In this document: positions 4,357 to 29,450 of the stretch, in pieces
Position numbering within the stretch: position 1 is the first letter of the stretch
How the letters are laid out: the number at the start of each line of letters is the position of its first letter
Assembly (NCBI RefSeq): GCF_036860695.1
Contig: NZ_JAYKGJ010000001.1
Location: 992,001-1,056,000 of the forward strand
From: Rosettibacter firmus
GTDB lineage: Bacteria; Bacteroidota; Ignavibacteria; Ignavibacteriales; Melioribacteraceae
Direction: 5' to 3'
Length of the DNA stretch: 64,000 nt
Program-made: the position numbers and the translations under genes
The notes under the pieces: generated by a model
Told to the model about the DNA's origin: nothing
The model's input: the letters and a program-made list of their open reading frames with translations, nothing else
Databases searched by the model: none

Positions 4357-4496
4357 TTTTTTCTTATCACATATGTTAATTATATAATTAATTTAATTAA
4401 AATTAGTTTATGTAATGTAGCCAAACATCGATAAAAAATAGCCAGATAGCGTCATTGACTAATTAGGTAATAAATTTTTAATTCTATTTTTACTTT

Positions 4497-6434: not shown

Positions 6435-6546
6435 TTATAACACCTTTTAATTTTGATAAATAATTTATTGAAAAAAAGTATTAGGTACTTCACATTAATT
6501 TAATTATCTAATATAAATTTTATGACTTCAAAAAGTTCATCATAAA

Positions 6547-7386: not shown

Positions 7387-7417
7387 TATAACCTCAATTT
7401 AATAATTATAATGAACA

Positions 7418-7457
7418 AATAAAGAAAAGTGTGGATGTAAAACAAGCATCCACACTA
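7418..7457 (-). terminator. Rho-independent terminator after the GH94 gene
   Basis: A 10-bp perfect stem (AGTGTGGATG paired with CATCCACACT) with a 9-nt loop is followed on the minus strand by TTTTCTTT. It begins just past the stop codon of the phosphorylase gene and closes the symporter/GH5/GH94 unit. Confidence 0.85.
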
Positions 7458-7462
7458 AAATT

Positions 7463-9901: not shown

Positions 9902-9915
9902 TTTAACCTCTTTAT

Positions 9916-10950
9916 TTAGTCTTTGAGTGATTCAAAAATAGTTTTATTAAATGATTTAATTTTTCCTCTAATAAATTTTCCTGAATCTGTAAGTTCATCA
10001 TCCTGCCAGTTACCATCTGGTTTGTTATCAACCTTAAGAGCAGCAGATGTTTCTTTTTTATCTGCAATAGACCAATTGCACCAGCTAATATGATTATCTT
10101 CCATAAATTTAATCCACTTATCAGTTTCTTCGTAATCAAGATAACCACTCCCTGTGTATTCACAAGTTCCAAATTCACTTACAAAAATTGCTATCCCTTT
10201 TTCTAATGCTTTAATTGCTTTATCTCTTAATGCTTGCTTATGACTTGCAGCATAAAAGTGAAGAGCATAAACGATGTTATCAAATTTTAATGGATCATCT
10301 GCTGCTATATCAACATCTTGAGACCATGTGGATGTTCCTACAATAATTAAATTATCTGGATCAATTTCACGAATGCTTTTAATTACAGCTTCTGCATAAG
10401 GTTTAATATCATTTTCCCAGGAAATCTGCATTGGTTCATTATAAATTTCATAAATAAGATTTGGTTTATCGCCATAAAGTTTAGCTATTCTTTTAAAAAA
10501 ATCTATTGCAAGTTCAGGATGTTTATGAGCATTATGATCATGCCAATCGACAATAACATAAATTCCTAAATCAATACAAGCTTCGATAACTGTTTTTATT
10601 TTATTAAACTCTTCATCAGGATTTTTTATATAACCATATTTTCCATCAGCTTCTTCAATTCCCATAGAAGCACGAACTACTGTACAGTTCCAATCATCTC
10701 GCAGCCATTTAATGCAATCATAATTATAATATTTCCCCATTAATTGACTCCAGAAGAGACTCATCCCTCTTAAAACAACTGGATTTCCATTTTTGTCTAA
10801 AATTTTTGTTCCTTTTACTTGCAAATTACCAAACTTCTCAACTACGCTTTTAGAACTATCCATTTGTATGCAAAAGGTTTTTGATAATAAAATGAATATT
10901 GAAAAAAACAAAAATAAAAACGTACTCTTAGGTTTTAGTAATTTACTCAT
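9916..10950 (-). CDS. GH5 endoglucanase (cellulase), secreted
   Basis: This 344-residue protein has an N-terminal signal sequence (about residues 1-28, ending near KTFC) and a single GH5 domain, probably subfamily 2: [32 protein letters not shown], the acid/base Glu172 in YEIYNEPM and the nucleophile Glu259 in FVSEFGTC. It lacks a carbohydrate-binding module and the T9SS C-terminal domain found in other secreted proteins of the window, so it probably stays periplasmic or is released by another route. It would cut beta-1,4-glucan into oligosaccharides for the neighbouring symporter and cellobiose phosphorylase. AGGGG precedes the ATG. The cysteine near the signal end could be a lipid attachment site, but the context is a poor lipobox. 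Confidence 0.93.
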
Positions 10951-11052
10951 TTCTACCCCTATAATTAATTTTCAAATTACTCACTTTGTTTATGAGATGA
11001 AGAATTTATATTAATGCAAAGTAATTATTACTATATTTGTTTATATGGCAAT

Positions 11053-15213: not shown

Positions 15214-15248
15214 CATAAAAGAGCGTCTACTAAATTTAGTAGACGCTT
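15214..15248 (-). terminator. Perfect-palindrome terminator closing the uptake operon
   Basis: A 26-nt perfect palindrome, AGCGTCTACTAAA followed by its complement, lies 12 bp past the stop codon of the CBM9 protein gene. On the minus strand it is followed by CTTTTATG, a short T-rich tract. It probably ends the six-gene operon. It could also work weakly in the other direction. Confidence 0.8.
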
Positions 15249-15259
15249 ATAAATAATTA

Positions 15260-16894
15260 TTATTTTATCAGCATCATTTTGCGTGTTAAGTTAACATTAT
15301 TTGTTATAAGTTTATAGAAGTATACGCCGCTTGACATATTATTAGCATTGAAATCAACGGTGTAAACTCCTGCTTTTTGATACTGATTTATCAAAGTTTT
15401 AATTTCATTTCCAAGAATATCATATACAGCAAGTTTTACATAACCATCATTTGGCAATGCATATGTAATTTTAGTTGTAGGGTTAAAAGGATTTGGATAA
15501 TTTTGTTCTAATCTATAATTCTGAACCAAAACAGGTTCATATCTTACACTAGTCTTTTTACCAGTTAGAATTGCTGTACCAAATAAAGATGCATTTTGCC
15601 ATGTGTTACCATCTGTTGTCCACCAGTGTCTAACATCATTTCTACTACCTTTATCTCTATCGGCATTTGAAATTTCAAATCCAATTTCTTGATCATCTTT
15701 TAAAGGCATATATGGTTCTACCTGAGCTTTTGGAATTGCAACTTCAAGATTATAACCATCATCTGTTTTCTTAAATACATAAGTCCCAGGTCCACTACTA
15801 ATTCGCTGGCTTTCTTCTAATTTATCATCACCATATACCCATCTCCACTGGACATCATTTACTCCATCGTATGTAGTCCCTTTTGAATTATCGCCATCTA
15901 GGAATAATTCAACACAATCATTCATCCATGGTTCTCCCCTATTTGAGGCATCTAATTCTTCATCAGTAACTTTAACAAACAAATAAAAGTTATTGTCATC
16001 CCACAAGCACCAGAATGAAGACAAATGGTCATTCCATGATGTATATATTGTATCACTTAGTGGTGCACCTTCTAATCTTGTTAAACTGTATTCAAGCGAA
16101 TTATTCCATGTATCATCAAAATCACCATCAATAATTGGGGCCGACTCAGTGTAATTAATTTTCAATACTTCATCAACTTCATTGGGGTCAAGAACTGCAG
16201 TACCAAATAAAGATGCATTTTGCCAGGTATTGCCATCTGTTGTCCACCAGTGAATTACATGATCTCTATTTCCCTGGTCTCTATCAGCATTCGAAATTTC
16301 AAATCCAATTTCTTGTTCATCTGTTAATGGCATATATGGTTCTACCTGAGCTTTTGGAATTGCAACTTCAAGATTATAACCCTCCTCGGTTTGTTTGAAA
16401 ACAAAATCTCCAGGACCACTGCTAATTCGTTGACTTTGTTCTAATTTATCATCACCATATACCCATCTCCACTGGACATCATTTACTCCATCGTATGTAC
16501 TTCCTTTTGAATTATCGCCATCGAGGAATAATTCGACACAATCATTCATCCATGGCTCTCCCCTGTTTGATGCATCTAATTCATCATCAATTACCTGCAC
16601 AAACAGGTAAAAGTTATTATCATCCCACAATACACGGAAAAACGAGGAATGATCATCATATACTTTATCTGTATCTGAACTGCCACTTTCAAATTTTTGT
16701 AATGGAATTGCTGTTGTAAGAAGCCAGATATTATCTAACTCACCATCTATAACTGGTGGAACTGCTGTTTTTGGAATTATTAGAACATCATTCACAATTG
16801 ATTTTAAATTAATAACCCTTTTAGGTCCAGCATTTAGAGTAAAAGCTACTGCCAGTAACAAAAACGTGGTTAACAACACAGTGAATTTTTTCAT
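15260..16894 (-). CDS. Secreted protein with two tandem CBM9-like domains and a T9SS type A sorting domain
   Basis: The 544-residue protein has a signal peptide (residues 1-22), two CBM9-like beta-sandwich domains (about 35-240 and 243-445) and a T9SS sorting domain (about 455-544) with NYPNPFNPTTKI, YDILGNEI and SGVYFYKL. The two middle domains are close copies, each with RGEPWMNDCVELFLDGDN, VQWRWVYGDDKLE and FEISNADRD. CBM9 domains bind reducing ends or glycans in xylanases; here no catalytic domain is attached, so a surface glycan-binding role is likely. A strong AGGAGGT precedes the ATG. It is the last gene of the operon, directly before the palindromic terminator. Function as a cell-surface binding protein is inference. 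Confidence 0.88.
   Translation of the reverse strand: MKKFTVLLTTFLLLAVAFTLNAGPKRVINLKSIVNDVLIIPKTAVPPVIDGELDNIWLLTTAIPLQKFESGSSDTDKVYDDHSSFFRVLWDDNNFYLFVQVIDDELDASNRGEPWMNDCVELFLDGDNSKGSTYDGVNDVQWRWVYGDDKLEQSQRISSGPGDFVFKQTEEGYNLEVAIPKAQVEPYMPLTDEQEIGFEISNADRDQGNRDHVIHWWTTDGNTWQNASLFGTAVLDPNEVDEVLKINYTESAPIIDGDFDDTWNNSLEYSLTRLEGAPLSDTIYTSWNDHLSSFWCLWDDNNFYLFVKVTDEELDASNRGEPWMNDCVELFLDGDNSKGTTYDGVNDVQWRWVYGDDKLEESQRISSGPGTYVFKKTDDGYNLEVAIPKAQVEPYMPLKDDQEIGFEISNADRDKGSRNDVRHWWTTDGNTWQNASLFGTAILTGKKTSVRYEPVLVQNYRLEQNYPNPFNPTTKITYALPNDGYVKLAVYDILGNEIKTLINQYQKAGVYTVDFNANNMSSGVYFYKLITNNVNLTRKMMLIK
15571..16006 (-). repeat. Intragenic duplication, copy 2 (C-terminal CBM9 module)
   Basis: This stretch aligns without a gap to the copy exactly 624 bp (208 codons) further along. 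Over 15841-15900 I count 57 identical bases out of 60, including third codon positions. Such silent-site identity points to a recent duplication or gene conversion. Divergence increases toward both ends. Confidence 0.85.
16195..16630 (-). repeat. Intragenic duplication, copy 1 (N-terminal CBM9 module)
   Basis: Partner of the repeat 624 bp to its left within the same gene. The match covers the core of the CBM9-like module, from the DGDN and VQWRWVYGDD motifs to the WWTTDGNTWQNAS segment, and fades toward the start of the domain. Confidence 0.85.
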
Positions 16895-16919
16895 ATTACC
16901 TCCTGATTTTAGTTAGTTA

Positions 16920-18143
16920 TTATAAATTATCTCTTCCGTAATACGGTGCACTTGTATTCACCATACCCATTCTGTAAACACGAACAGAATCTCTGGTTAA
17001 AGTAATTCCTCTATTTAAGTAGAGATAAAATGAGTTGCCCCAGACAATTTGATCTATAAATTTGGGAAGTATATTTGCCTTGTAATAAGGTGATAAAGTT
17101 CCATCACTTTCTAAAACAAACAACGAATAATTAGGATGATTTTTAAGAACTACCAGCATCATCCCATCTTTATCAAAAGTTATCGAACTAATTGTAGCTC
17201 TACTAAAATCTGCCCCTTGATTTTTTACATTTAATACTGGTTCTTGATCTCCAAGTGTGCCATTATTGTCGAGTATTCTATGTTTCCAGATATTTTCTGC
17301 ACTTGTTACATATAAATAATTATTAAAAACTCTTATATCTGTAATTATTACACTCTGATAAAGATTAGTTGTGATTATTGATTTATCTGGTTTAACAATA
17401 AATAAACCATCTTTTTTTGCTGTGTATAGATTATTATATTGATCAAAATCTAATCTATCACATTCTTTAGGAAGCGTAAGATATTTTTCTTCGGCACCAG
17501 TATTTGGATCCAATCTGTACAAAACATTTTTGCTCACCAATGCATATAAGAATCCACCCGGTCCAAATTTTAAATCACTAACTCTTGAAAAGTCGCTTGG
17601 CAGTTGACCCCCAACTCTAACAATTTCTTTCCCATCATATTTTAACAATGCTCTTCTTGTGGCTATATATAAATTTTCCTGTTTATCAACTTCTATTGCA
17701 AACAAATTATATGTATAATTATTAAAGTCGCCGTATTGTTCATAAGGAATGTTTATCTTATAGTTTTTAATTTTAGCCAGTTCAAGAGCTTTCTGAACTG
17801 AGATAACAACATCAAGAGGTTTGTTGTATTTTGAGAGTTCAAGTTGAGGTCTATAAATTACTATTTGATTTGGTGATAAACTTTTTATTTCTGTTATTTT
17901 ACCTCCTACAAAAACGATTGTATTGTTATCTGGAGTAACTCCAAAATTTTCTCCATTAATTATAATTTCTCGTACACCTGCACGGGCAGAATCTTTTGGA
18001 ATTATTGAACTTACTTTTGGAGATGGGGCTAATTGCAGACTTTCTGGATTAAAAATTAATGGTGGTTCCTCATACTTTGTACATTTTATCAAACCAGCAA
18101 TTGTTATAACTACAATAAAAATAACAAACTTTCTTCCTTTCAT
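16920..18143 (-). CDS. IPT/TIG-domain lipoprotein with beta-propeller-like region
   Basis: The 407-residue protein begins with a lipoprotein signal (hydrophobic stretch, then GLIKC, predicted lipidation at Cys21). Residues about 42-130 form an IPT/TIG domain (VSSIIPKDSARAGVREIIIN, GENFGVTPDNN). The rest, with repeats such as IEVDKQENLYIATRRALLKYDG and LKFGPGGFLYALVSKNVLYRLDP, resembles NHL or SMP-30-like beta-propeller blades. AAGGTGA precedes the ATG and it follows the PorV-like gene by 14 bp. In related SusC/SusD loci, IPT/TIG lipoproteins act as surface glycan-binding proteins. Since no SusD is present here, this is a candidate for the extracellular lid or binding partner of the TonB receptor, which is inference. 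Confidence 0.82.
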   Translation of the reverse strand: MKGRKFVIFIVVITIAGLIKCTKYEEPPLIFNPESLQLAPSPKVSSIIPKDSARAGVREIIINGENFGVTPDNNTIVFVGGKITEIKSLSPNQIVIYRPQLELSKYNKPLDVVISVQKALELAKIKNYKINIPYEQYGDFNNYTYNLFAIEVDKQENLYIATRRALLKYDGKEIVRVGGQLPSDFSRVSDLKFGPGGFLYALVSKNVLYRLDPNTGAEEKYLTLPKECDRLDFDQYNNLYTAKKDGLFIVKPDKSIITTNLYQSVIITDIRVFNNYLYVTSAENIWKHRILDNNGTLGDQEPVLNVKNQGADFSRATISSITFDKDGMMLVVLKNHPNYSLFVLESDGTLSPYYKANILPKFIDQIVWGNSFYLYLNRGITLTRDSVRVYRMGMVNTSAPYYGRDNL

Positions 18144-18157
18144 GGTTTCACCTTTTT

Positions 18158-19132
18158 TTAAAATGAAATTCTTGCAGTTATTCTTTGAACATTATTAAAA
18201 ATTCCATAAGGAGTGTATGAATAATCGATATTAAACCCTGAATAAGTAATTCCAACCCCAAATGTTATATTATCTTCGTAATTACCAATAATATAGCCTC
18301 CTCTTAAATAAATGATATTCATAAATTGATATTCCGTTCCTATCTTTAATTGTTCTGGTCTTGATCTTGGGTGTGTGTAATCAATAGAAACCAGTAATGT
18401 TTGATTGTTCAATCCTACATTAACAAAATCAAAGAGATTTGCAGAAATGCCTATTACAAAATTCAAGGGGAGTTGAAATCCTTCTTCTTCATATTTAACT
18501 TCTTTAGAAAAATTTCTTACAGACATTCCGAAGGTAATGCTCTTAAATCCAGTTTTATAAACTGTACCAAAGTCGAATGCTAATGCATTTGCTTTGTTTT
18601 CTTTTTCTACTGTACCGTCTTTTGTTGGAACTATACTTTCTCCTAATTTTTGATAAACATATCTAACCTGTCCACCCACACCAAATTTATCATTCAACAT
18701 TTTTGCATAACCAATTCCAACAGCTAAGGCTGTAGGTTTCATTATTTTAGTATCTACATAACCTTTTTCATTATTAGCAACCATAGTACCTTCAACTTCG
18801 CCGTAATCAACTGATTGGATACTAAAACCAATAACTCCCATATCACCATTAAATGGAGATATAATCATGCTTGCAGTAATGTGTTTTATATCTGCAATCC
18901 ACTGATTTATACTAAAATTTGCATTAAAGAATTTATCCATTTGTGCCATACTTGCAGGGTTATAAAATAGAGCACCTGAATAATTCTGGAATGATGTTAC
19001 AGCTTCTCCAATTGCACTTGCTCTTGCATCATTTGAAACACTCAGGAAATTAAAACCTGTTTGAGCTAACTTCTGTTGTGCATTTATATTAGTAACAATT
19101 ATGAATAAAAAAATTAACATTAAAGTTTTCAC
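18158..19132 (-). CDS. PorV/PorQ-family outer-membrane beta-barrel protein
   Basis: The mature protein matches the PorV/PorQ (FadL-like) family: after the signal peptide comes GFNFLSVSNDARASAIGEA, then YNPASMAQ and repeated amphipathic strands ending in TARISF. PorV is the T9SS component that shuttles cargo to the sortase PorU; paralogues are frequent in these phyla. An ATG 27 nt upstream overlaps the previous stop codon, but GTAGGAG lies 8 nt before the GTG chosen here, and this start gives a clean signal peptide (MKTLMLIFLF). It sits between two secreted partners of the operon, suggesting a dedicated delivery or anchoring role. That specific role is inference. Confidence 0.85.
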   Translation of the reverse strand: MKTLMLIFLFIIVTNINAQQKLAQTGFNFLSVSNDARASAIGEAVTSFQNYSGALFYNPASMAQMDKFFNANFSINQWIADIKHITASMIISPFNGDMGVIGFSIQSVDYGEVEGTMVANNEKGYVDTKIMKPTALAVGIGYAKMLNDKFGVGGQVRYVYQKLGESIVPTKDGTVEKENKANALAFDFGTVYKTGFKSITFGMSVRNFSKEVKYEEEGFQLPLNFVIGISANLFDFVNVGLNNQTLLVSIDYTHPRSRPEQLKIGTEYQFMNIIYLRGGYIIGNYEDNITFGVGITYSGFNIDYSYTPYGIFNNVQRITARISF

Positions 19133-19155
19133 TTTATTATCTCCTACAATTTTTT

Positions 19156-21315
19156 TCATCTTATAACAATCAACTTTTTGTAAACGCTATCACCTTTCTT
19201 AAATATCAAATTGCCATTACTATCTTTATAATCTTCTGTAACTTCAATATGAATTATGTATAACCCGCTAACAATCACCTGTCGAGATGATGTTAATGAA
19301 TGCCAGAGTTCATCTCCGCTGTAATTTTTATGATCAATTGTTTCGATCAGTTCTCCAGATTCAGTAAATATTCTAATTTTGCAAACGGGAGGTAATCCAT
19401 AAAATGCAATTCTGTCTGGTGCATCGATGCCAAATTGCAAATCTCTTGCTCTAATATTGTAAGGATTAGGAACTATTCTAATGTTTGAAAGATTATTACC
19501 CGGTGAACGTGTAAGAAATGCTTCTCTGTTTGTCATTGTATAATATTTACTACTTACTAACGGAACACCAGGTTCAATGTCATTTGTTGAACCATCATCT
19601 TTAGATTGAATGTAATAGTAATAATTGAAACCTCGTTTAGCGGTTGTATCCAAAAAAGTAGTATTTGTATTATTCTTATCAGTCTCGAATATTAATGTAA
19701 AGACAGTATCAGTTCTTCCTTCGGCTCTATAAATTCTATAACCATTGAAATTTGGCCATGATCTTGCATTATCAGACCATTCCAATAATATACCTCCACC
19801 TGCAGATCTTACAATAAATCTTTCGGGTGGTGGTGGTGGTTGAGGAATATTAAAATTCCTATTAAAGTTATCCATAGCCCTTCTAAAAGCTTGGAAGAGT
19901 GAATCCTTACCGCTGAAAACCCATAAATTTTTATATAAATTTCTGTCATTCGTTGTAGAGCCATCAGGTAAAACATAAGGTGGGATTCTATTAAACCATT
20001 TATTTACAACCTCTCTATTTTTAGTTCTATCTATACCAGCTACAGCCTCGGCAACAACAATACGAATACTATCTCCTGGTTCTAAGTCATATGGACCAAA
20101 ACCTTGAGTTGCAGAATAACCTCCAGCATCATCTCCCCAAGTATTAGCAAAAGCAGTAGGTAAACCAGTTACTGGATCTTTACCAATTTGTTCAGCATGA
20201 CTCTGGCGTAGATGACCTCCCATCATAAATTCAGTGTATTTTCTTGTCATTAAATTTTCGTTATACTGGTCTACTGGTTGAACAGGGCTATCTGATCCAG
20301 TAAATATTGTAGTAATTGGTTGATTGGGGTCATCTGATTTATCTTTTGCAGATTTGTCAGCATGCAATACAACAACACCTGCAAAATTTGTCCCGGCCAT
20401 TATAGCACCATCTGGTCTCGGTTCACCAATATCTTCTGCAAGCCCTCCTCCAGGTCCATTAGAATGAGGACCATAATAAGCCCATATTGCCCTGAATGGA
20501 CCCGGATGATATGGTGTACCCATTACATCATTAATAGTATTTCTACCCCAACTTGCACCCTGTGGAAACCATCCTCTTGTGTATGCTTCGCCTGCAAATC
20601 CATATCTATATTCCCAGAAAAAAATTACACCTGTTAATTTTTTGGGTTTGCTTATTAATTTTGGTTTCCCCTCAGAGTTATCAATTATAAGTCCCGTATT
20701 CTTAAATGTATATTCATATATATAATAATTATCGTGATACTGTTGAGAAAATGCTAAAACTCGTCTTTTTATTGTTATACCTATATTTGTATGAACAACA
20801 TTTTCAAGAACTCTATCGGCAGGTAAATTTGGATCAACTTCATCTACTTCATCATCATAATCTCTGTTCGATGCATTTATATCATCTACTATTACTTGTG
20901 GATGTTCAAATTTTCCAATTAATTTAAGTTTCTCCTGATATACATCGCTTCCTAAGTAAACTTCTCTTGGTCCAATACAAATTACTTTATATGGAAATGT
21001 TTTTCCTTTCAGCGTTCCTGTTTCTTCTACATAATTTGTTGTACCTATCCAGAGTGCCTTAGAAGCACTTACACCTTTATTGTTAATATATTCAGAAGGC
21101 CAGATTAAACCATCTAATTGATCAACATTTACAAACCCACTTCTACCTCTGCGCCCAAATTCAATTTCTGCTCCTGCGCTCGAAAACCAATTTCGTAATG
21201 ACCCAACAGAAATCCATTTGACTTCTTGCTGTTGAGTACCATATACCTGTGCATTAGATGATTTATATGTCACAATTATCATTATAAGCAATAGCATTAA
21301 ATAAATTTTCTTCAT
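19156..21315 (-). CDS. Large secreted protein with fibronectin type III domain and sorting-type C-terminus
   Basis: This 719-residue protein has a signal peptide (about 1-22), a long N-terminal region of about 480 residues that I cannot assign to a named family, a proline run (IPQPPPPPE) and an FN3 domain (about 500-590; GGGILLEWSDNARSWPNFNGYRIYRAE region). The C-terminus from about residue 620 (IRIVPNPYN, RIFTESGELIETI, SGLYIIHIEV, KKLIVIR) resembles T9SS or FlgD-like sorting domains. AAGGAG precedes the ATG. It starts 19 bp after the TonB receptor gene and overlaps the longer frame of the PorV-like gene, so it is clearly part of the operon. It is probably exposed at the cell surface. Confidence 0.8.
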   Translation of the reverse strand: MKKIYLMLLLIMIIVTYKSSNAQVYGTQQQEVKWISVGSLRNWFSSAGAEIEFGRRGRSGFVNVDQLDGLIWPSEYINNKGVSASKALWIGTTNYVEETGTLKGKTFPYKVICIGPREVYLGSDVYQEKLKLIGKFEHPQVIVDDINASNRDYDDEVDEVDPNLPADRVLENVVHTNIGITIKRRVLAFSQQYHDNYYIYEYTFKNTGLIIDNSEGKPKLISKPKKLTGVIFFWEYRYGFAGEAYTRGWFPQGASWGRNTINDVMGTPYHPGPFRAIWAYYGPHSNGPGGGLAEDIGEPRPDGAIMAGTNFAGVVVLHADKSAKDKSDDPNQPITTIFTGSDSPVQPVDQYNENLMTRKYTEFMMGGHLRQSHAEQIGKDPVTGLPTAFANTWGDDAGGYSATQGFGPYDLEPGDSIRIVVAEAVAGIDRTKNREVVNKWFNRIPPYVLPDGSTTNDRNLYKNLWVFSGKDSLFQAFRRAMDNFNRNFNIPQPPPPPERFIVRSAGGGILLEWSDNARSWPNFNGYRIYRAEGRTDTVFTLIFETDKNNTNTTFLDTTAKRGFNYYYYIQSKDDGSTNDIEPGVPLVSSKYYTMTNREAFLTRSPGNNLSNIRIVPNPYNIRARDLQFGIDAPDRIAFYGLPPVCKIRIFTESGELIETIDHKNYSGDELWHSLTSSRQVIVSGLYIIHIEVTEDYKDSNGNLIFKKGDSVYKKLIVIR

Positions 21316-21334
21316 ATTTATAGCTCCTTATCGT

Positions 21335-24300
21335 TTACAGATTAAACGAAATATTAATACCAAAGAACACCTGTCTCGGATTTAAGAAATTAAACGAAGT
21401 ATTGTTTGGCATATCGATATATGCTTTATCTTCAAGAATTTTTTGCATCTTAGCATTATCAACTTCAGACCATTCATTATTAACATAATTCATGTATTTC
21501 TTTGTAGTCTTATCATAATAGATTACTATAGGATTCGGATTGGATACTTCATAAACATTTACAACCTGTTCTATAGGCTGGTATGGAACTCCTTCTTTTC
21601 TATAATCACCAACTCTATCGTTACCTGGTATATTATCATATGCTGGACTTGGAGGTAGATGTAAGGATTGCAAATAGAATAATTGATCAAAATTATCATA
21701 AAAGCCGGCACCGGATAATCTCTTGAAATTAAACAAGTTTCTAACATCAATTAAAAATGTAATCTGGAAAGGCTTAAGATCAACAGTCTTACTTAATAAT
21801 AAATCAACATTCCAGTAGTCTGTAACCTGAACATTATTAATTATTTCTCTAATACCATTAGGATTATAAGTTATATATTCTCCTGCTCTCCATTCACCAA
21901 GAATATTTAATGTCCAGTTACCAAATGGATATAAACCGCCAAAACTTGGACCATATTGTGAAGGTGTAAAGAATGTGAGGTTTAAATTTGCTCTCGGTTG
22001 AGGAACAGGTTTTTGTTGATATAATGTAATTGTATTTTGATCTATTAATTTTTGTTGACTTGGATCTTCATTAATAACCTGCTTACCAAATGCACCTCTT
22101 GTATTAACCTGATATGTATAAGTTAAAAATCCTCTTATCCAATTGCCGCCAGTTTTCTTTAATGTAATTTCAAGTCCTCGAATATCTTCATAGCTGTTAT
22201 TATTAGCTCTGAAATAGCCTATCCCTTTTCTATCGCTCAGATATTGTGTAAATGAAAGTTGATTGGAAATATCATTATAAAAAGCTGAGATTTGAATTAA
22301 AAATGTATTAAACAGCAAATGGTCGTAACCCAATTCATAAGAAATTGTTTTTGCTTGTTGTAAATTCGGATCTCCATAATTCAATAGTGTTCCATTTGAT
22401 GCTCTTCCCAATCTAAATATTTCTTCGTAAGCTGGTAATTGTTTGAAGTGACCAAAATTAAAGTACAATTTTGAATTCTCTGTAATAGGATGTGAGATAC
22501 CAAGTCGTGGACTAAAAGCAAGATCAATTTTGGCTCTCTTTTTTGGATATTCTTTGTTGGGATTATAACTTGAAGAGAAAAATGTTTTATCGAATGGATC
22601 AACATCATACCAATCGGTATTTGGATTACTTAAATCCATCCTCACACCAACATTAGCAACAAATCCAAAAGCTTCAATTTTATCTTGTATATATGCCGAA
22701 ATTCGATAAGGATTCCAGCGTTCTTTTACATAATTCAAATCGTTAAAGTAAGTATTAACAGCTCCATAATTAAGATTAAGATCATAGTAAGCAAACTCAA
22801 CTCCTGCTTTAATTAAATGAATATGAGTAATTTGATTTGTATAATTAGCTTTGATTAGAGTTGAACTTAATCTGCTCGTGTCTCTTATAGTTGAAGAATG
22901 TCCACCAAAAAACATTCCTGTTAAACCAGTTAGAGGGCGAGGATCAAATCCAAATGGCGCTTCGTCAACAAAATATCCTGGCACAATTTCATATTTTTTT
23001 GTTGTATCTCTTTGTCTGATTGGTCCTGTTTTATAAGCTCTTAATACATGTTCAAAACTTACTTCTAATAACGACTTATCACTTAGAAAATTTGTTAGTT
23101 TACCAGCAAATGTAGCATGATTAAGTATTGCCTGACTATACCATGAATCTGTAAATATACGACTCGGTCTTTGTTCATTTGTTATCTCTGCAATTGTATA
23201 TGGTGTTCGCATAAACGCAGTAGGACTCCAGAACTGAACACCATTTATTCCCCACGCAGGATTATTAAACTGGCTATCATCTCTATTCATTGCTACATTA
23301 AAGGATTTTCCTGTATTTGCACTTATTACTAATTTTAGTTTATTGCTTATATCAGAGTTCAACTTTAAGGAGTAATTATACTCCAGGTAATCCGGACGAC
23401 TTAAAGGAATAAGGAGTGCTTCGCGATTATACCAGAAACTTGTAAAGAATCTTAGATTACCTAAACTTTTACTAATTACTGGTATTGGACCTCCAAAGCT
23501 TGCATCGATAATATAATCTGGTTCAATTGTAGGCCTTCTTCTTCTTTCCCACATCCACACTTTTTGAGCTGCAGCAGGAGAAAGATCATTATTTGGATCG
23601 TTATCACTTAATAATTTCTGCGATATAGCATTCCATCCTTCAAAACGTGGATATTGTCTTTGAGTATATATATCCCAGGCTCCATTTTCCGTTCCTGTCC
23701 ATGCTACTGCAGGATCTAAATAAGGTCTATTCCACATTGAATTAGGATCAAATACAGAAATCCCAAAATGCTTTGGTGTGGGTGGGCTATACTTCACATT
23801 CACTGCACCGTAATAATTATTGATACTTCCTTCTTTCTGGATTATGTTGACAATTCCAGATCTAACCTGACCATACTCTGCATTAAAGCCTCCTCGTTCA
23901 ATTGAAATTTCCTGTATTGAACTTAATGCTAAAGTTGTAATTGGTGAATTATTTCTCGGATCTCTTAATGTTACTCCATCAACCTGAAATAATAATTGTG
24001 TTGCACTGCCACCTCTAATTACAAAACCTTCTTCCACTCCTGCTTGTAGACTTGCAATTCTATCAATCCTTGTTATAGGCAAAGTTGTAATTTCTTCTGA
24101 TCTAACTGTAGCAACACTTGTCGAAACATCTTTTTTAACTATTTCTCTTTCGGCTGTTATAACTATACTTCCTAATTCAATAGCTTCTGGAACCATTTCA
24201 ATATTTACTGTAGATGTCTGATCAATTCTTACTTCAACATCATTTACAGTAACAGTAGCATAACCAACCATACTGGCAACAATTGTCTGTAACCCTGGTG

Positions 24301-24514
24301 GAACATGAAGTATTACATAATAACCATCTACATCTGTAGTAGCACCCAATGTTGTCCCTTTTACAACAACATTTACACCGATTAAAGGTTCTTTTGTTTG
24401 TTTATCAACAATTCGACCGGCAATTTTTCCTGTTGTACCTGCTATCGATATACCAACATAAACAACTACGCAAATGAACATCATTAAAATTATTCTGTAT
24501 TTCTTTTCCCTCAT
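21335..24514 (-). CDS. TonB-dependent outer-membrane receptor with CarboxypepD_reg-like N-terminal domain (SusC-like)
   Basis: The protein of about 1059 residues has a signal peptide, a carboxypeptidase-regulatory-like domain (GKIAGRIVDKQTKEPLIGVN, about 28-110), a plug domain (ITRIDRIASLQAGVEEGFVIRGG, QVDGVTLRDPRNN, ISIERGGFNAEYGQVRSGIVNI) and a long beta-barrel ending in a typical terminal strand (FFGINISFNL). These receptors import glycans or other large nutrients using TonB energy. AAAAGGAG runs directly into an upstream ATG, so I prefer the ATG two codons later, which has correct spacing. The gene lies 29 bp after an SSS symporter gene and is followed by secreted partner genes, but no SusD gene is present. 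Confidence 0.92.
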   Translation of the reverse strand: MREKKYRIILMMFICVVVYVGISIAGTTGKIAGRIVDKQTKEPLIGVNVVVKGTTLGATTDVDGYYVILHVPPGLQTIVASMVGYATVTVNDVEVRIDQTSTVNIEMVPEAIELGSIVITAEREIVKKDVSTSVATVRSEEITTLPITRIDRIASLQAGVEEGFVIRGGSATQLLFQVDGVTLRDPRNNSPITTLALSSIQEISIERGGFNAEYGQVRSGIVNIIQKEGSINNYYGAVNVKYSPPTPKHFGISVFDPNSMWNRPYLDPAVAWTGTENGAWDIYTQRQYPRFEGWNAISQKLLSDNDPNNDLSPAAAQKVWMWERRRRPTIEPDYIIDASFGGPIPVISKSLGNLRFFTSFWYNREALLIPLSRPDYLEYNYSLKLNSDISNKLKLVISANTGKSFNVAMNRDDSQFNNPAWGINGVQFWSPTAFMRTPYTIAEITNEQRPSRIFTDSWYSQAILNHATFAGKLTNFLSDKSLLEVSFEHVLRAYKTGPIRQRDTTKKYEIVPGYFVDEAPFGFDPRPLTGLTGMFFGGHSSTIRDTSRLSSTLIKANYTNQITHIHLIKAGVEFAYYDLNLNYGAVNTYFNDLNYVKERWNPYRISAYIQDKIEAFGFVANVGVRMDLSNPNTDWYDVDPFDKTFFSSSYNPNKEYPKKRAKIDLAFSPRLGISHPITENSKLYFNFGHFKQLPAYEEIFRLGRASNGTLLNYGDPNLQQAKTISYELGYDHLLFNTFLIQISAFYNDISNQLSFTQYLSDRKGIGYFRANNNSYEDIRGLEITLKKTGGNWIRGFLTYTYQVNTRGAFGKQVINEDPSQQKLIDQNTITLYQQKPVPQPRANLNLTFFTPSQYGPSFGGLYPFGNWTLNILGEWRAGEYITYNPNGIREIINNVQVTDYWNVDLLLSKTVDLKPFQITFLIDVRNLFNFKRLSGAGFYDNFDQLFYLQSLHLPPSPAYDNIPGNDRVGDYRKEGVPYQPIEQVVNVYEVSNPNPIVIYYDKTTKKYMNYVNNEWSEVDNAKMQKILEDKAYIDMPNNTSFNFLNPRQVFFGINISFNL

Positions 24515-24543
24515 GTTCATCTCCTTTTCATTTATAATTTTTT

Positions 24544-26091
24544 CTATATATTAAGTAGATTTGTTATATCTACAACCAACATATAAACCGGGAATACAAA
24601 TAATAATTTTTCTTCAATGCTTTTTTTTGAAACCGATTTTGAAGGTAATACTAATCGTGCTTTGCTTAATAGAAGCAATAAAATGAATGAAAATGAGAAG
24701 ATAAAAATTGAATACTCAAGAAAATCCAGATTTATCAACCATTTCAATACAATAAAACTAAATTGATATTTGCTGAAAAATATTTCGCAAATAACTTTAA
24801 AGGCTATTAGAATTAAACCGGAAAGAAAAATTGAAATTGCCGCACTATTCGGGATAGAATTAAATAATAATCCCCCTAACAAAAATGCAGCTATAATTGA
24901 AATTACATAGAAAAATAGATTGAATAGATTAAAATAAAATCTAACTTCGCCATAACTTACAACTGATAGTAATAGTATCGATATAAACAACAATACTATT
25001 ACTGTAATTCTTCCAACCAGTACCAGTTCACGTTCTGATACATTTGGTTTTAAAGCACTATAAAAATCAAATGTTAAAAGATAGGCTGTATTATTGAAGC
25101 AGCTTAATAATAAAGATGTTAACACAAACATTAAGGTAATTATAAATGCTCCTTTCATGAACTCTGGTAAAAAGCCTTCTCCTGAAAATATATTCTTAAT
25201 CTCTTCTGAAGTTTTTTGTGGGAATAAATTAAAAATGATAACAGCAATAAGAGTAAAAAACAAAACAGGAATTATTTGATATAACATCGAAACTATCGAA
25301 GACCTTTTCAGATAATCAATATTCTTTACAGTAATAGTTCTCTGAATCATAATTTGATCGGCACATACAAACCAGAATCCTAATATCAAAAAAGCCAGTA
25401 ATGATTTTATAATTGATACGTTTAAATTAGAACTCAATAACGGCAGATATAAAAATTCATTTGTCCCGAATTTGTCTGCTTGATATTGATGAAAAAACCA
25501 GAAAGCAAATCCAATAGTAAAAAGTGCAATAAACAACATATTAAATGCGTTGATGTAGAGTTCTGCTTTTAATCCAGAGATGATTAGTGATATGCATGAT
25601 ATAATGAGAAAGAATAAAAGTGTAAAGTAAGAATCGAGATTGGTAAATAAATTAATTAATATATTTCCGGCTGCAAGTACTAAAACAAGTCGAATACCAA
25701 TATTTATGAATATGTATGTTGAAGAAATTATATGTCGAAAAGTTTTATTATATCTGATTTCAAAGTATTGTGGGATTGTCTTAATATTTATTTTTGAATA
25801 ATAAGGAATTAATATCCAGCCATAGATATAAAATAAAAATGCTGTGATTATTCCATAAATTACAGGAAACCCTCCAAGATATCCGGATCTTGTTAATCCC
25901 AGAATATAAGGACTGATGAAAGTGGCAGCTGTTAGAGAGATTCCATGAGTTATCCAGTGAATACTTTTATCTGCAAAGAAATATCTTTCCGAATTCATTT
26001 CTTTAATAATCGATAAATATATACTTACTGCTATCATCAACAGTGGATAACAAAAAAATAAAATGAATTCTATTATGGATATCTCAAACAA
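24544..26091 (-). CDS. Sodium:solute symporter (SSS family), first gene of the TonB operon
   Basis: This 515-residue membrane protein has about 13 predicted helices and SSS features such as SERYFFADKSIHWITHGISL and GFWFVCADQIMIQRTITVKN, which matches the QR(Y/A)LxA-type segment of the family. It is only distantly similar to the other symporter of the window. The start is TTG, supported by AAAGGAG with 5-nt spacing; no better ATG exists close by. With the TonB receptor it could form a two-step route: outer-membrane uptake, then sodium-driven passage through the inner membrane. The solute is unknown. Confidence 0.87.
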   Translation of the reverse strand: MFEISIIEFILFFCYPLLMIAVSIYLSIIKEMNSERYFFADKSIHWITHGISLTAATFISPYILGLTRSGYLGGFPVIYGIITAFLFYIYGWILIPYYSKINIKTIPQYFEIRYNKTFRHIISSTYIFINIGIRLVLVLAAGNILINLFTNLDSYFTLLFFLIISCISLIISGLKAELYINAFNMLFIALFTIGFAFWFFHQYQADKFGTNEFLYLPLLSSNLNVSIIKSLLAFLILGFWFVCADQIMIQRTITVKNIDYLKRSSIVSMLYQIIPVLFFTLIAVIIFNLFPQKTSEEIKNIFSGEGFLPEFMKGAFIITLMFVLTSLLLSCFNNTAYLLTFDFYSALKPNVSERELVLVGRITVIVLLFISILLLSVVSYGEVRFYFNLFNLFFYVISIIAAFLLGGLLFNSIPNSAAISIFLSGLILIAFKVICEIFFSKYQFSFIVLKWLINLDFLEYSIFIFSFSFILLLLLSKARLVLPSKSVSKKSIEEKLLFVFPVYMLVVDITNLLNI

Positions 26092-26552: not shown

Positions 26553-29450
26553 ATGAAATTAACTGATAACTTTATGGTTTTAAAACTTACTTCAAAAAAC
26601 AAACTTTTTTTATTAAAATTTTTCTTTGCCTTACATTACTTGATGGCTCAATCATTAGATACACCAGATATATCCATGCCTGCAGGATTTTATTACAATA
26701 ATTTTGAAGTTGAAATTAGCTCAATAAATGGTGCACAAATTAAATATACACTTGATGGTTCAGATCCCATACACTCACCAACAGCAATCATTAAAGATTC
26801 TCCTGTGTTAATAACAATAGATCCAGAAAGTACAGAAGGTAATAGAGGAAAAACTCCAGGTGTTGTTTTAAGGGCTTGCACTTTCTACAATAATCAATTC
26901 AGTCAATCAGTAAGCAGGACTTATATTTTTATAAACAAAATTGTAGAATTATCTCCTGAAGGATTTAAACCTGGTGCTGATTGGCCTGCACCCACAAAAA
27001 GTCCAAATCCTCAATTTATAGATTATGGTCTTGCAGCAGATGTAGTCAATAATCCTCAGTACAAAGATTTAATTGATGACGCATTTTTATCAATTCCAAC
27101 AATTTCATTAGTAACAGATTTAAAAAATTTATTCGATCTTAAAACTGGAATTTATATGAATGCTATGATGGACGGTATTGAATGGGAACGACCAGCATCA
27201 ATTGAATTGATTTATCCTGATGGGAAAAAAGGATTTCAGATTAATTGCGGTGTAAGAATACGTGGAGGCTGGAGTCGTCATGGAGATAATCCTAAACATG
27301 CATTCAGATTTTTTTTCCGAAATGAATATGGTAAAGGAAAATTAAATTATCCACTTTTTGAAAATGAAGGTGTAGATGAATTTGATAAACTTGATTTAAG
27401 AACAAGTCAGAATTATTCCTGGAGTTACCCTGGACATCTCAGTAAATATAATACAATGAATCGAGATGTCTTTTCAAGAGACTTACAAAGAGAAACTGGT
27501 CAACCTTATACCAGAAGCAGATATTATCATTTATTTATCAATGGAGTTTATTGGGGAATTTATCAGACACAAGAAAGACCCGAAGCAAGTTTTGCACAGA
27601 GTTATTTTGGCGGCAATGAAGAAGATTATGATGTAATTAAACCTGGAGATAATAATCATCAGATTGAAGCTACTGATGGAAATCTTAATGCATATCAGGA
27701 AATTTGGAATATGTGCTTGAAAGGATTTACTTCAAACGAAAATTATTTCAAACTACTCGGGAAAAATCCTGATGGAACACGCAATCCTAATTACAAAGTA
27801 CTGGTCGATATCGATAATTTAATAGACTTTATGTTAATAATATTTTATACAGGAAATTTTGATAGTCCCACCTCCAAATTTGGAAATGATAATTTGCCTA
27901 ATAACTTTTTCTGTATCTACAATCGTAATGGTAATGAAGGTTTTAAATTCTTTATTCACGATGCAGAACACACATTAAGAACAACTCAAGGTGAAGGTCC
28001 AGGTATAGGACTTAACGAAAATCGTGTTAATATTAACATGTATGTTAACAACGTTTTTGGTTTTCATCCTCAATGGCTTCATTATAAACTAACAAGTAAT
28101 CCTGAATATAGAATATTATTTGCAGATCATATATTCAAACATTTTTTTAATAATGGATGTATGACATCACAAAAAGCTACCAGATTATTTCTTTTACGTG
28201 CTGCTGAAATCGATACAGCAATTATTGCTGAATCTGCAAGATGGGGAAATACAAATAATTTTATTTCATATACACAAAAAGATTGGCAATGGGCAATCGA
28301 TGATATTGTTAATAATTACTTCCCCCAAAGAACTGATATTGTCCTTAATCAACTGAAAAATGCAAATCTCTATCCAAATATTAATCCTCCCATTTACAAA
28401 ACTTCCAATAACGAAATAACAGATAAATTTATAACTGTTGAGCCCGGGACTAAAATAAAATTAGTGAATCCAGATGTAACAAAAGGAACCATTAAATATA
28501 CAATTGATGGAACCGATCCGAGAGCAATTGGTGGAGCTATAAATATTTCTGCAAAAGATGGTGGCAACGAAGTTGAATTAACTATTAATTCAACCACTGT
28601 AATTAAATCAAGAATTCTAAATGGAACAACCTGGAGTGCATTAAACGAAATAACTTTGTTTACCGGAAACAATGATAATTTAAAACTAACAGAAATTCAT
28701 TATCATCCTTTAGATAACGATACAATTAATAATGATGAATATGAATTTATAGAATTAAAAAATTGTGGAGATTCCCCCATCAATTTATCGAACGCATATT
28801 TTTCTTCTGGTATTCAATATACATTTCCTCCCAATACTATCATTAACCCAAAACAATTTCTCATTTTAGCATCGAATAGAAAAGAGTTCAATAATCGCTA
28901 TGGATTTTATCCTTACGGAGAATATAAAGGAAAGTTAGATAATGGTGGTGAAACTTTAAATCTACTTACTGCCACAAACGATACAATTTTTAGTTTTACA
29001 TATGATGATACCACTCCCTGGCCAGCAGAAGCAGATGGCACCGGTTATTCATTAGTTGCAAATGATATAAACGGCTCTGGCAACATGAATGATCCATCTT
29101 ACTGGAGAATTTCTTATTCAATTCATGGGTCACCAGGAAAAGACGATTTGCCAGTTTCCATTAAAGATAGAACAATAAAAAATGATTTTAAATTATTTCA
29201 TAATTATCCAAATCCCTTTAATCCAAAAACTATTATTACATATAAAATATCGGATGCTTGTAAAGTTGAATTAAAAATTTATGATGTGCTTGGCAATGAA
29301 ATTGCAACTTTAATTAATGAATACAAATTACCTGGCACTTACAGGATCGAATTCTCTGCAAGTAAATATCAATTATCAAGCGGAGTTTATTTCTATCAAT
29401 TAAGAGCAGGAAATAAAATAGACACAAAAAAAATGTTGTTTATAAAATGA
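26553..29450 (+). CDS. Secreted CotH-kinase-like protein with lamin-tail domain and T9SS sorting domain
   Basis: Domains of this 965-residue protein in order: signal sequence (about 1-33), a chitobiase C-terminal-like domain (IKYTLDGSDPIHSP, about 40-130), a CotH kinase domain (about 160-600; VRIRGGWSRHGDNPKHAFRF, FINGVYWGIYQTQERP, FFIHDAEHTL), a second chitobiase-like domain (IKYTIDGTDPRA, about 635-700), a lamin-tail domain (LTEIHYHPLDND, EYEFIELKN, about 710-830) and a T9SS type A sorting domain (NYPNPFNPKTI, YDVLGNEIAT, SGVYFYQL). CotH proteins are atypical protein kinases known from spore coats and secreted effectors. In place of the classical DxD metal motif this subfamily shows HDAEH. 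Its cell-surface target is unknown. The start has no ribosome binding site. Confidence 0.88.
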   Translation: MKLTDNFMVLKLTSKNKLFLLKFFFALHYLMAQSLDTPDISMPAGFYYNNFEVEISSINGAQIKYTLDGSDPIHSPTAIIKDSPVLITIDPESTEGNRGKTPGVVLRACTFYNNQFSQSVSRTYIFINKIVELSPEGFKPGADWPAPTKSPNPQFIDYGLAADVVNNPQYKDLIDDAFLSIPTISLVTDLKNLFDLKTGIYMNAMMDGIEWERPASIELIYPDGKKGFQINCGVRIRGGWSRHGDNPKHAFRFFFRNEYGKGKLNYPLFENEGVDEFDKLDLRTSQNYSWSYPGHLSKYNTMNRDVFSRDLQRETGQPYTRSRYYHLFINGVYWGIYQTQERPEASFAQSYFGGNEEDYDVIKPGDNNHQIEATDGNLNAYQEIWNMCLKGFTSNENYFKLLGKNPDGTRNPNYKVLVDIDNLIDFMLIIFYTGNFDSPTSKFGNDNLPNNFFCIYNRNGNEGFKFFIHDAEHTLRTTQGEGPGIGLNENRVNINMYVNNVFGFHPQWLHYKLTSNPEYRILFADHIFKHFFNNGCMTSQKATRLFLLRAAEIDTAIIAESARWGNTNNFISYTQKDWQWAIDDIVNNYFPQRTDIVLNQLKNANLYPNINPPIYKTSNNEITDKFITVEPGTKIKLVNPDVTKGTIKYTIDGTDPRAIGGAINISAKDGGNEVELTINSTTVIKSRILNGTTWSALNEITLFTGNNDNLKLTEIHYHPLDNDTINNDEYEFIELKNCGDSPINLSNAYFSSGIQYTFPPNTIINPKQFLILASNRKEFNNRYGFYPYGEYKGKLDNGGETLNLLTATNDTIFSFTYDDTTPWPAEADGTGYSLVANDINGSGNMNDPSYWRISYSIHGSPGKDDLPVSIKDRTIKNDFKLFHNYPNPFNPKTIITYKISDACKVELKIYDVLGNEIATLINEYKLPGTYRIEFSASKYQLSSGVYFYQLRAGNKIDTKKMLFIK

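Follow-up and report, generated by a model that had tools for sequence, protein, structure and literature searches.

Within the window (the whole stretch of 64,000 nucleotides of Rosettibacter firmus DNA that was analyzed), six ORFs lie on the minus strand between positions 15260 and 26091. In order, they encode an SSS-family symporter, a TonB-dependent receptor, a 719-aa protein, a PorV-family barrel, an IPT/TIG protein, and a CBM9 protein with a T9SS tail. The intergenic gaps are 23, 19, −4, 14, and 25 bp if the first start of each ORF is used. If the receptor instead starts at its second ATG (24514) and the PorV-family gene at a candidate GTG (19132), which is preceded by GTAGGAGA, they become 29, 19, 23, 14, and 25 bp, the values given in the first-pass annotation; operon gap sizes therefore depend on the choice of start codons. 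Beyond the last gene, a 26-base perfect palindrome, AGCGTCTACTAAATTTAGTAGACGCT (15222 to 15247, minus strand), is identical to its own reverse complement and scored as terminator-like in a terminator scan, with a weak tail, CTTTTATGAA. The scan returned 8 sites relative to 4.8 ± 2.2 in shuffled sequences, a small excess, and the call of a probable intrinsic terminator rests on the palindrome. A promoter scan returned 55 sites relative to 72.6 in shuffles, which is below chance, and no promoters were taken from it. The first-pass annotation had described six tightly spaced minus-strand genes ending in a palindrome, and all of the ORFs and the palindrome were confirmed. Because the gene order recurs across phyla, the arrangement is more than chance.

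The core of the operon (receptor, T9SS-tailed surface protein, and PorV-family barrel, in fixed order) is found in eight cassettes in this genome and is hereafter called the module. The outermost genes are more variable. The first, an SSS-family sodium/solute symporter with a TTG start (24544 to 26091, minus strand), matches PF00474 (SSF) at 84.0 bits and TIGR00813 at 116.5 bits, below the cut-off of 184. The last (15260 to 16894, minus strand) encodes a tandem CBM9 protein (CBM9_1, PF06452, two stretches, 208.7 bits) with a type A T9SS sorting tail (Por_Secre_tail 36.3 bits; TIGR04183 39.5 bits, cut-off 23). Of 137 module genes, 5 have an SSS gene upstream (including L070, L075/L170, and L079), a count in which two are apparently on one contig and many contigs stop before 6 kb upstream. 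CBM9 occurs in 5 of the 81 loci whose downstream DNA spans 5.7 kb or more (4/46, 0/19, and 1/16), counted by CBM9 domains alone and with one of the five positives (L170) probably on the same contig as L075; it was rejected as a core part on this basis. The earlier description of an SSS-led operon with a CBM9 T9SS partner thus holds locally but not for the module, and, judged by gene content, both genes are local additions outside its core.

Further along the same strand, a sugar cluster (1861 to 13008) encodes GH95, GH127, a 279-aa protein without a Pfam match, GH94, GH5, and a second SSS symporter (Pfam assignments). With a TonB receptor clustered on one strand with CBM9, IPT-propeller, and GH5, GH94, GH95, and GH127 genes, the region is a PUL in the broad sense. 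Based on the CBM9 cargo and the adjacent glycoside hydrolase and SSS genes, the ligand in the window operon is most likely a plant-type oligosaccharide.

Receptor, surface protein, and the search for SusD

The TonB-dependent receptor (21335 to 24520, minus strand) features a CarbopepD_reg_2 domain (PF13715, 73.9 bits) and a plug (PF07715, 32.8 bits). It scores 84.5 bits against the SusC/RagA model TIGR04056, below the cut-off of 368.25, and the best stretch covers residues 32 to 207; at the profile level, the receptor is SusC-like mainly in its N-terminal part.

The adjoining gene encodes a 719-aa exported surface protein (19156 to 21315, minus strand), our proposed SusD-replacing lid, that has no match in Pfam (E 10) or NCBIfam (E 1). 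Its AlphaFold2 model (pLDDT 92.3, from an alignment of 97 sequences) predicts a beta-supersandwich, a fibronectin type III (FN3) domain, and a T9SS-type C-terminal domain (CTD) of the long kind. The earlier label of FN3 surface protein was therefore correct as to the FN3 domain but incomplete. Residues 28 to 490 (19846 to 21234, minus strand) are predicted to fold like the N-terminal part (about half) of GH94/GH116-type enzymes, a fold that we take to be the beta-supersandwich (VIA-align: Z 18.6, 254 residues, 3.2 Å). The 50 matches listed for this domain comprise glycosidases and glycoside phosphorylases, a cyclic glucan synthase, and other, related glycan enzymes; those listed for the whole model come mainly from glycoside enzymes and FN3 proteins. 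In the model, the catalytic (alpha/alpha)6 barrel that follows this domain in GH94/GH116 is absent, and the FN3 and C-terminal domains take its place. The FN3 domain (residues 495 to 602; 19510 to 19833, minus strand) also has a profile match to the Fn3-like structure 3mpc (E 0.00088).

In the putative T9SS-type domain (residues 606 to 719; 19159 to 19500, minus strand), Lys at −6 and a terminal Arg are present in all 100 family members examined, and Gly654 is invariant among the 97 sequences. The accessible text of a study of T9SS CTDs names two conserved motifs, a Lys in the last strand and a Gly where a loop joins strands 3 and 4 (PMC11285876), and both features are present in the aligned sequences, with the Gly placed by eye. 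Measured from the PNP motif to the C-terminus, the median length is 103.5 residues in this family, versus 78 for other cargo and 91 for the PorU of this genome. The domain is not recognized by the T9SS models, TIGR04183 included; when TIGR04183 was applied to seven sister surface proteins, three fell below the cut-off, three had no match, and one, L065, was above it (29.7 versus 23). Tails of the sister proteins match PorZ (E 1.8e-12 and 1e-4) and PorU (E 0.004), the attachment-complex proteins of P. gingivalis, at scores all far below the whole-model cut-offs.

SusD itself is a lipid-anchored protein with a TPR fold. The first-pass annotation had noted that no SusD is present and had named a SusD homologue hidden in the FN3 or lipoprotein gene as grounds for refutation, and our sequence-profile searches support the absence. 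SusD Pfam profiles had no match in the 719-aa or IPT/TIG protein (E 10), PF07980, PF14322, and PF12771 had none anywhere in the genome, and the same profiles detect SusD in a Bacteroides control. The 50 matches listed for either structural model include no SusD, and a SusD-like fold may still lie beyond that list. We rejected the idea that SusD and the module are mutually exclusive: a full-length-type module gene occurs in 65 of 245 genomes of the class (best E ≤ 1e-100, four candidates scored per genome), and 22 of the 57 SusD-positive genomes carry both.

The IPT/TIG and beta-propeller protein (16920 to 18143, minus strand; TIG, PF01833, 34.0 bits) is a candidate accessory surface binder. 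Its model (pLDDT 91.8) has as best PDB matches in Foldseek 4hw6 and 3tc9, Bacteroides auxiliary nutrient binding proteins of 11 to 12% identity whose source genomes are rich in SusD. The N-terminal Cys is invariant in 58 of 58 IPT-propeller relatives, and the lipobox −1 position is G, A, or S in 50 of them; it is Lys in the window protein and L070, so that the lipobox of the window protein, by its sequence, is non-canonical and poor. Among the eight cassettes of this genome, the gene is missing in six, and matches to its profile are confined to the window and L059 (fetched stretches, E up to 1). The lipoprotein, FN3 protein, PorV, and CBM9 protein had been suggested jointly to take the place of SusD. 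The most likely replacement among them is the 719-aa protein rather than the lipoprotein, which resembles solved Bacteroides IPT-propeller binders and is missing from those six cassettes.

Conservation, linkage, and co-divergence

Gene order was counted in 79 usable loci of 80 named, from Ignavibacteria, KSB1, Neomarinimicrobiota, Calditrichota, and Delongbacteria. Where enough DNA was available, the receptor adjoins the 719-aa-type gene in 59/60 loci, PorV follows that gene in 54/58, and the IPT-propeller lipoprotein is present in 47/51. In 20 loci of other classes, the corresponding counts are 20, 20, and 15; in 20 loci of the class to which this genome belongs, PorV does not follow in 7, and in 5 of those 7 it lies just upstream of the receptor. 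The gene order is thus conserved among relatives, and the lack of such conservation that the first-pass annotation had named as grounds for refutation was not observed. The gene set is not peculiar to Ignavibacteria and extends to other classes of the phylum and to other phyla.

The barrel gene (18158 to 19159, minus strand, with the GTG at 19132 as its probable start) belongs to the PorV/PorQ family of outer membrane proteins (PorV_fam, NF033709, 201.1 bits, cut-off 90) and falls below both equivalog cut-offs (PorV 89.3 of 250; PorQ 91.3 of 220). Twelve PorV-family genes in this genome are above the family cut-off. The genome also encodes SprA (1081 bits) and PorU (977 bits), the latter adjoining a PorV-family gene of 325.5 bits; on the strength of these matches, a T9SS translocon is encoded here. 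Of 137 module surface-protein genes, 101 have a same-strand PorV-family gene no more than 900 bp away, versus 5 of 115 genes for other type A T9SS cargo in the same stretches. This contrast is weaker in the stretches from this genome, where 4 of 13 other cargo genes also adjoin a PorV-family gene. The earlier suggestion of a separate PorV paralogue is supported insofar as such a gene is linked to the cassette. In double cassettes, one PorV is common to two receptor/surface-protein pairs. The PorV-family count was dropped as a proxy for the module, as all 245 class genomes are positive (up to eight candidates scored per genome).

Domain-wise co-divergence was computed over 81 operons. Receptor divergence tracks that of the supersandwich (r 0.86, partial 0.74), versus a partial of 0.10 with the C-terminal domain of the same protein. 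Conversely, the FN3 and C-terminal parts co-diverge with the PorV barrel (C-terminal domain: r 0.71, partial 0.30), for which the partial with the supersandwich is −0.24; receptor and PorV have a partial of 0.39. The split persists when the 54 loci with a single receptor are taken and when the outlier L060 is removed, and on the receptor side it is weaker in the window-like subtype (n = 49), at 0.53 for the supersandwich and 0.32 for the C-terminal domain. Lipoprotein distances have partials of 0.32 with PorV, 0.28 with the supersandwich, and 0.08 with the receptor. Co-divergence can have causes other than contact.

These data bear on two alternatives. First, rather than a T9SS partner, the barrel could be a pore of the FadL type that admits a small hydrophobic or aromatic product, with the operon importing such compounds. 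Matches to this family exist (Toluene_X, E 0.00031, for the window barrel; TodX 6z38, E 7.6e-08, for a profile from the eight own-genome copies), but the same eight-copy profile matches F. johnsoniae PorV (6h3i_F) far better, at E 5e-26. As the PorV-family genes are also linked to surface-protein genes, co-diverge with their tails, and have sugar genes as neighbors, we regard a pore as very unlikely. Second, the system could salvage peptidoglycan or cell-wall glycan rather than plant glycan, with the glycan type varying by subfamily. In E. coli, the GHL10 enzyme DigH cleaves denuded glycan of peptidoglycan, and a GHL10-type gene lies downstream of 27 of the 137 module genes; the four such genes used as seeds carry PF02638 and a T9SS tail (Pfam). 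The window, however, falls in another clade (35 rows, SH-aLRT 100) with no GHL10 or propeller-cargo label among its rows, several of which are on short contigs, and its own neighbors are GH5, GH94, GH95, and GH127. For the window operon, we therefore find this reading improbable.

A proposed uptake module and its relation to known systems

On balance, we lean toward an outer-membrane uptake module that performs the function of SusC/SusD, in which SusD is replaced by the 719-aa protein as a T9SS-exported lid with a dedicated PorV/PorQ-like barrel as its anchor. In this model, the T9SS would export the 719-aa protein, and the dedicated PorV-family paralogue would receive it from the translocon and retain it through an uncleaved C-terminal domain, as PorU is held on PorV and PorZ on PorQ in the P. 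gingivalis attachment complex (accessible text of PMC5562754). The supersandwich would be positioned over the receptor, either as its lid or as a partner in binding substrate, the IPT-propeller protein may serve as an additional binder, and the receptor would import the ligand, powered by TonB. One published result, from the accessible text of PMC11285876, counts against retention by a long uncleaved tail: the hairpin that lengthens PorU and PorZ tails did not stop cleavage when placed into RgpB.

Alternatively, the 719-aa protein could be T9SS cargo of the usual, cleaved kind or a scaffold that binds no substrate, with PorV as its shuttle and the receptor working alone or lidded by the lipoprotein. 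IPT-propeller proteins of the same fold are solved Bacteroides nutrient binders, and the lipoprotein is both widespread (47/51 loci) and related in its distances to PorV and the supersandwich. Nevertheless, the receptor co-diverges with the supersandwich (partial 0.66 to 0.74 across analyses, including that with the lipoprotein) and hardly with the lipoprotein (0.08), adjoins the surface-protein gene almost without exception, and in six own-genome cassettes has no IPT-propeller gene in the fetched stretches. We consider this alternative rather unlikely, though less so than the two above.

More tentatively, and as a possibility somewhat short of probable, the module may represent a second general architecture of TonB uptake in Ignavibacteria, KSB1, Neomarinimicrobiota, Calditrichota, and relatives, in which the N-domain of a glycoside enzyme whose catalytic barrel has been lost, exported by the T9SS and permanently tethered through an uncleaved CTD to a dedicated PorV/PorQ-like barrel, replaces SusD. 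If so, it would add to the kinds of cognate T9SS barrel-cargo pair, and dedicated barrels would explain the dozen PorV-family genes in this genome. To our knowledge, large-nutrient uptake in FCB-group phyla outside Bacteroidia is little studied. If correct, the model would answer how these phyla import large nutrients, give PorV-family paralogues a job, and tie type IX secretion directly to nutrient import. It would also provide an annotation rule (receptor, supersandwich-FN3-CTD protein, and PorV, often with an IPT-propeller protein) for substrate loci in uncultured genomes where susCD searches come up empty. We did not find the module described in the open PMC literature, as searched by abstract openings, or in the accessible text of PMC12611786 and PMC5317091, and it may still be published.

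The module resembles the SusC/SusD complexes of Bacteroidia in its receptor with CarboxypepD_reg and plug domains, adjoining surface-protein gene, accessory surface binder, glycoside hydrolases alongside, and several paralogous cassettes per genome. It differs in that no SusD was found, the window receptor is far below the SusC model, the partner pairs a glycoside-enzyme supersandwich fold with a T9SS-type tail, and the set includes a PorV-family barrel. With PorU-PorV and PorZ-PorQ, it shares a CTD-bearing surface protein, a PorV/PorQ-family barrel, and a long CTD (PMC5562754, accessible text). Unlike those pairs, as described there, it features one barrel per uptake cassette and a TonB receptor in the operon, no sortase domain was found in the window surface protein, and the binding of surface protein to barrel is a proposed one.

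Type B CTD cargo and PorP/SprF shuttles also form paralogous, operon-linked barrel/cargo pairs, sometimes with several cargoes per shuttle (PMC9143113 and PMC12618676, accessible portions). In contrast, the barrel here is of the PorV/PorQ family, the CTD is type A-like, and the partner is a TonB receptor rather than a gliding or adhesin machine. Finally, the atypical cellulose PUL chu_1276-1280 of Cytophaga hutchinsonii likewise combines a TonB-type barrel, other surface binders, and a glycosidase, with the canonical SusC/D pairs uninvolved; a PorV paralogue and a supersandwich protein are not mentioned in the accessible text of that report, according to which PULs of this type occur in three species (PMC12016534).

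Operon layout and the searches for SusD

The operon (15260-26091) comprises six minus-strand genes, in order an SSS symporter, the TonB receptor, the 719-aa surface protein (19156-21315), a PorV-family protein, the IPT/TIG protein (16920-18143), and a tandem CBM9 protein with a T9SS tail; all were called as ORFs and, except for the third, by domain labels. The gaps of 29, 19, 23, 14, and 25 bp in the first-pass annotation agree with the receptor's second ATG and a GTG start for PorV, and the perfect palindrome noted at the operon's end is present, spanning 26 bases and lying 12 bases past the last stop. Beyond the operon, the same strand carries a GDSL-TPR gene, a second SSS, GH5, GH94, a 279-aa protein (no match in a Pfam search), GH127, and GH95. 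The sugar cluster within this run (1861-13008; GH95, GH127, GH94, GH5, and the second, longer SSS symporter) is probably part of the operon's utilisation locus. Pointing away from the operon, a divergent CotH-kinase and lamin-tail-domain protein with a T9SS tail occupies 26553-29450.

The lack of SusD, initially read from the sequence, is supported by database searches with sequence profiles. SusD families found no match in the 719-aa or IPT protein with Pfam at E 10, and PF07980, PF14322, and PF12771 gave zero matches across the genome, with a positive Bacteroides control each time. The search is effective in this group, since PF07980 detects the family in 57 of the 245 Ignavibacteria genomes. 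The receptor has CarboxypepD_reg and plug domains in common with SusC but scores only 84.5 bits against the SusC model (cut-off 368.25). Among T9SS components, the genome also encodes SprA (1081 bits) and PorU (977 bits), the latter gene adjoined by a PorV-family gene (325.5 bits).

Recurrence of the receptor, surface protein and PorV-family genes

Receptor, 719-aa tail, and PorV-family matches coincide at eight places in the Rosettibacter firmus genome, and ORF lists give the order receptor, tailed surface protein, PorV-family gene at all eight. The surface protein is of the 719-aa type in three of these cassettes and of a longer, tail-related type (1033 to 1233 aa) in five; within the stretches fetched, only the window and L059, a sister cassette, have an IPT-propeller gene. 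Upstream of the latter (L059:13486-18756), ORFs resembling two-component regulators by eye are possibly its glycan sensor.

A search for the gene set in relatives, suggested at first pass, found the order kept across Ignavibacteria, other classes, and other phyla. Scanning named genomes with three related proteins as queries returned 230 relatives, and titles among the best 80 of the 230 cover Ignavibacteria/Melioribacteraceae, candidate division KSB1, Neomarinimicrobiota, Calditrichota, Delongbacteria, one WOR-3 bin, and unclassified bins. The surface-protein ORF was located in 79 of these 80 loci. Where contigs leave room, the receptor lies directly upstream in 59/60 (72/79 overall), a PorV-family gene downstream in 54/58, and an IPT gene in 47/51. 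A profile search of the phylum placed the family in 62 of 296 genomes at E <= 1e-60, 35 of them outside the class; one locus each from 20 of those 35 has the receptor in 20, PorV in 20, and IPT in 15. Among 20 hand-picked own-class loci (one per genome, from 65 genomes with E <= 1e-100), the receptor is present in 20, a downstream PorV in 13, and IPT in 17. Of the other seven, five carry PorV immediately before the receptor; L172 and L175 have it in neither position within the stretch fetched. Double cassettes, with two receptor/surface-protein pairs but one PorV and one IPT in view, occur in L086, L091, L111, L131, and L149.

The surface protein as a candidate two-ended adaptor

The AlphaFold2 model of the 719-aa protein (97 sequences; mean pLDDT 92.3) aligns structurally, from residue 28 to about 490, with the beta-supersandwich and adjoining linker at the N-terminus of glycoside enzymes, namely GH94 phosphorylases, GH116, and their relatives. 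The best match reaches Z 18.6 over 254 residues (3.2 A, 8% identity), far higher than the 7 to 8 that, by the tool's notes, is the best Z of models lacking a clear match; the match list barely probes residues beyond 28-538. FN3 and C-terminal domains follow in place of the catalytic helical barrel.

By sequence criteria, the C-terminal domain is type A-like. It matches a T9SS-tailed sister protein by profile (probability 96, E 3.4e-9), Lys at -6 and a terminal Arg are present in 100/100 family members, and Gly654 is invariant; TIGR04183 does not recognise the domain. Family members have a median length of 103.5 residues (88-147, n = 100) between the PNP motif and the C-terminus, against 78 (16-110, n = 71 of 72) for other type A cargo at these loci and 91 for the genome's own PorU. 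Against the PorZ model, sister-protein tails give E 1.8e-12 and 1e-4, and against the PorU model E 0.004; all these matches are well below whole-model cut-offs. According to PMC11285876, cleaved T9SS tails measure 67-88 residues and those of PorZ and PorU, which stay uncleaved, 96 and 108, Lys and Gly motifs such as those seen here are functional, and cleavage still occurred when a PorZ-type hairpin was put into RgpB.

The operon barrel is a PorV/PorQ family member below both equivalog cut-offs. Earlier studies describe PorV carrying bound PorU and PorQ bound PorZ in P. gingivalis (PMC5562754), cognate pairs of type B cargo and PorP/SprF barrels (PMC9143113, PMC12618676), and a cargo CTD enclosed by PorV loops inside SprA, with looser binding expected outside (PMC10994853). 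Of the 137 module surface-protein genes, 101 have a PorV-family gene on their own strand within 900 bp. Among 115 other cargo genes of type A, 5 do, and four of those five are among the 13 cargo genes of own-genome stretches. Separately, a pair of PorV-family genes, one scoring 137 bits and the other 65 (below cut-off), lies near a T9SS-tailed protein at L069:5104-8596, with no adjoining TonB receptor seen by eye.

Distance matrices for the surface protein's three parts were compared with those of its partners in 81 receptor/surface protein/PorV sets. The receptor follows the supersandwich (r 0.86, partial 0.74; C-terminal domain, partial 0.10), while PorV follows the C-terminal domain (r 0.71, partial 0.30) and FN3 (partial 0.26) rather than the supersandwich (r 0.54, partial -0.24); receptor and PorV share a partial of 0.39. 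The split holds when the comparison is restricted to the 54 single-receptor loci, and also when the outlier L060 is dropped. It is weaker in the window-like subtype (n 49; receptor, supersandwich 0.53 vs C-terminal domain 0.32; PorV, C-terminal domain 0.17 vs supersandwich -0.21) than in the remaining sets (n 32; 0.71 vs -0.02 and 0.37 vs -0.39). In 100 draws with receptor, supersandwich, and PorV trimmed to 101 columns, PorV prefers the C-terminal part every time and the receptor prefers the supersandwich 83 times. When the IPT protein is included (65 sets), receptor-supersandwich remains at 0.66 and PorV-C-terminal domain at 0.21. Such a pattern is expected of a two-ended adaptor, supersandwich to receptor and tail to barrel, and because of shared ancestry it is support, not proof.

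The surface protein would be exported via Sec and the T9SS, judging by its N-terminal hydrophobic segment, tail, and the presence of SprA. Linkage, tail type, and co-divergence suggest that the PorV-family barrel may capture and retain it; the supersandwich, by adjacency and co-divergence, would sit on the receptor. Neighbouring genes point to an oligosaccharide ligand, and import would be powered by TonB, as is established for this receptor family. The module is made of already known pieces; the literature searched yielded no description of their combination. The atypical C. hutchinsonii locus, in which SusC/D pairs are uninvolved according to PMC12016534, has partners different from those here.

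Accessory binders and variable cargo

In the IPT protein model (pLDDT 91.8), a beta-domain that matches TIG occupies the N-terminus and precedes a propeller-like series of strands. Its best PDB matches, 4hw6 and 3tc9, are Bacteroides proteins titled auxiliary nutrient binding proteins, and the model suggests an accessory binder of known kind. Its Cys is invariant (58/58); Lys precedes it in the operon copy, and lipidation of that copy is therefore uncertain. At 25 named loci (e.g., L073:9575-10279), an extra small protein, a putative lipoprotein, lies between surface protein and PorV. Its N-terminal Cys is invariant, with G/S/A preceding in 21/25, and Pfam gives no family except a weak HmuY match (E 0.0026) in one of the 25.

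In a surface-protein tree (137 sequences, quick method, SH-aLRT support only), the window's clade comprises eight rows, all with CBM9 (support 100), nested in a 35-row clade (support 100). In other clades, T9SS cargo of the propeller type follows the IPT gene, often together with a T9SS-tailed GHL10 glycosidase. Downstream sequence of 5.7 kb or more is available at 81 loci; among these, CBM9 occurs in at least 5, GHL10 in at least 25, and propeller cargo in at least 43, lower bounds given that some contigs end early. The core is thus constant and the enzymes and binders variable, as SusCD loci likewise have a fixed core with changing enzymes and binders.

A GHL10-type (PF02638) enzyme lies past the IPT gene at L155, L157, L165, L180, and 23 other module genes, with T9SS tails in all four Pfam-checked loci. 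Most GHL10-type loci fall outside the window's clade. Among 19 loci of other classes, 12 have such an enzyme, and this recurrence suggests a common substrate, possibly of cell-wall type. In a flanking-gene sample (107 of 251 ORFs), the commonest 25 of 135 Pfam families include T9SS tails (19) and sigma-54 activators (4), and LacI, ROK, FGGY kinases, sugar-binding proteins, GH94, GH31, and GH2 occur two to three times each.
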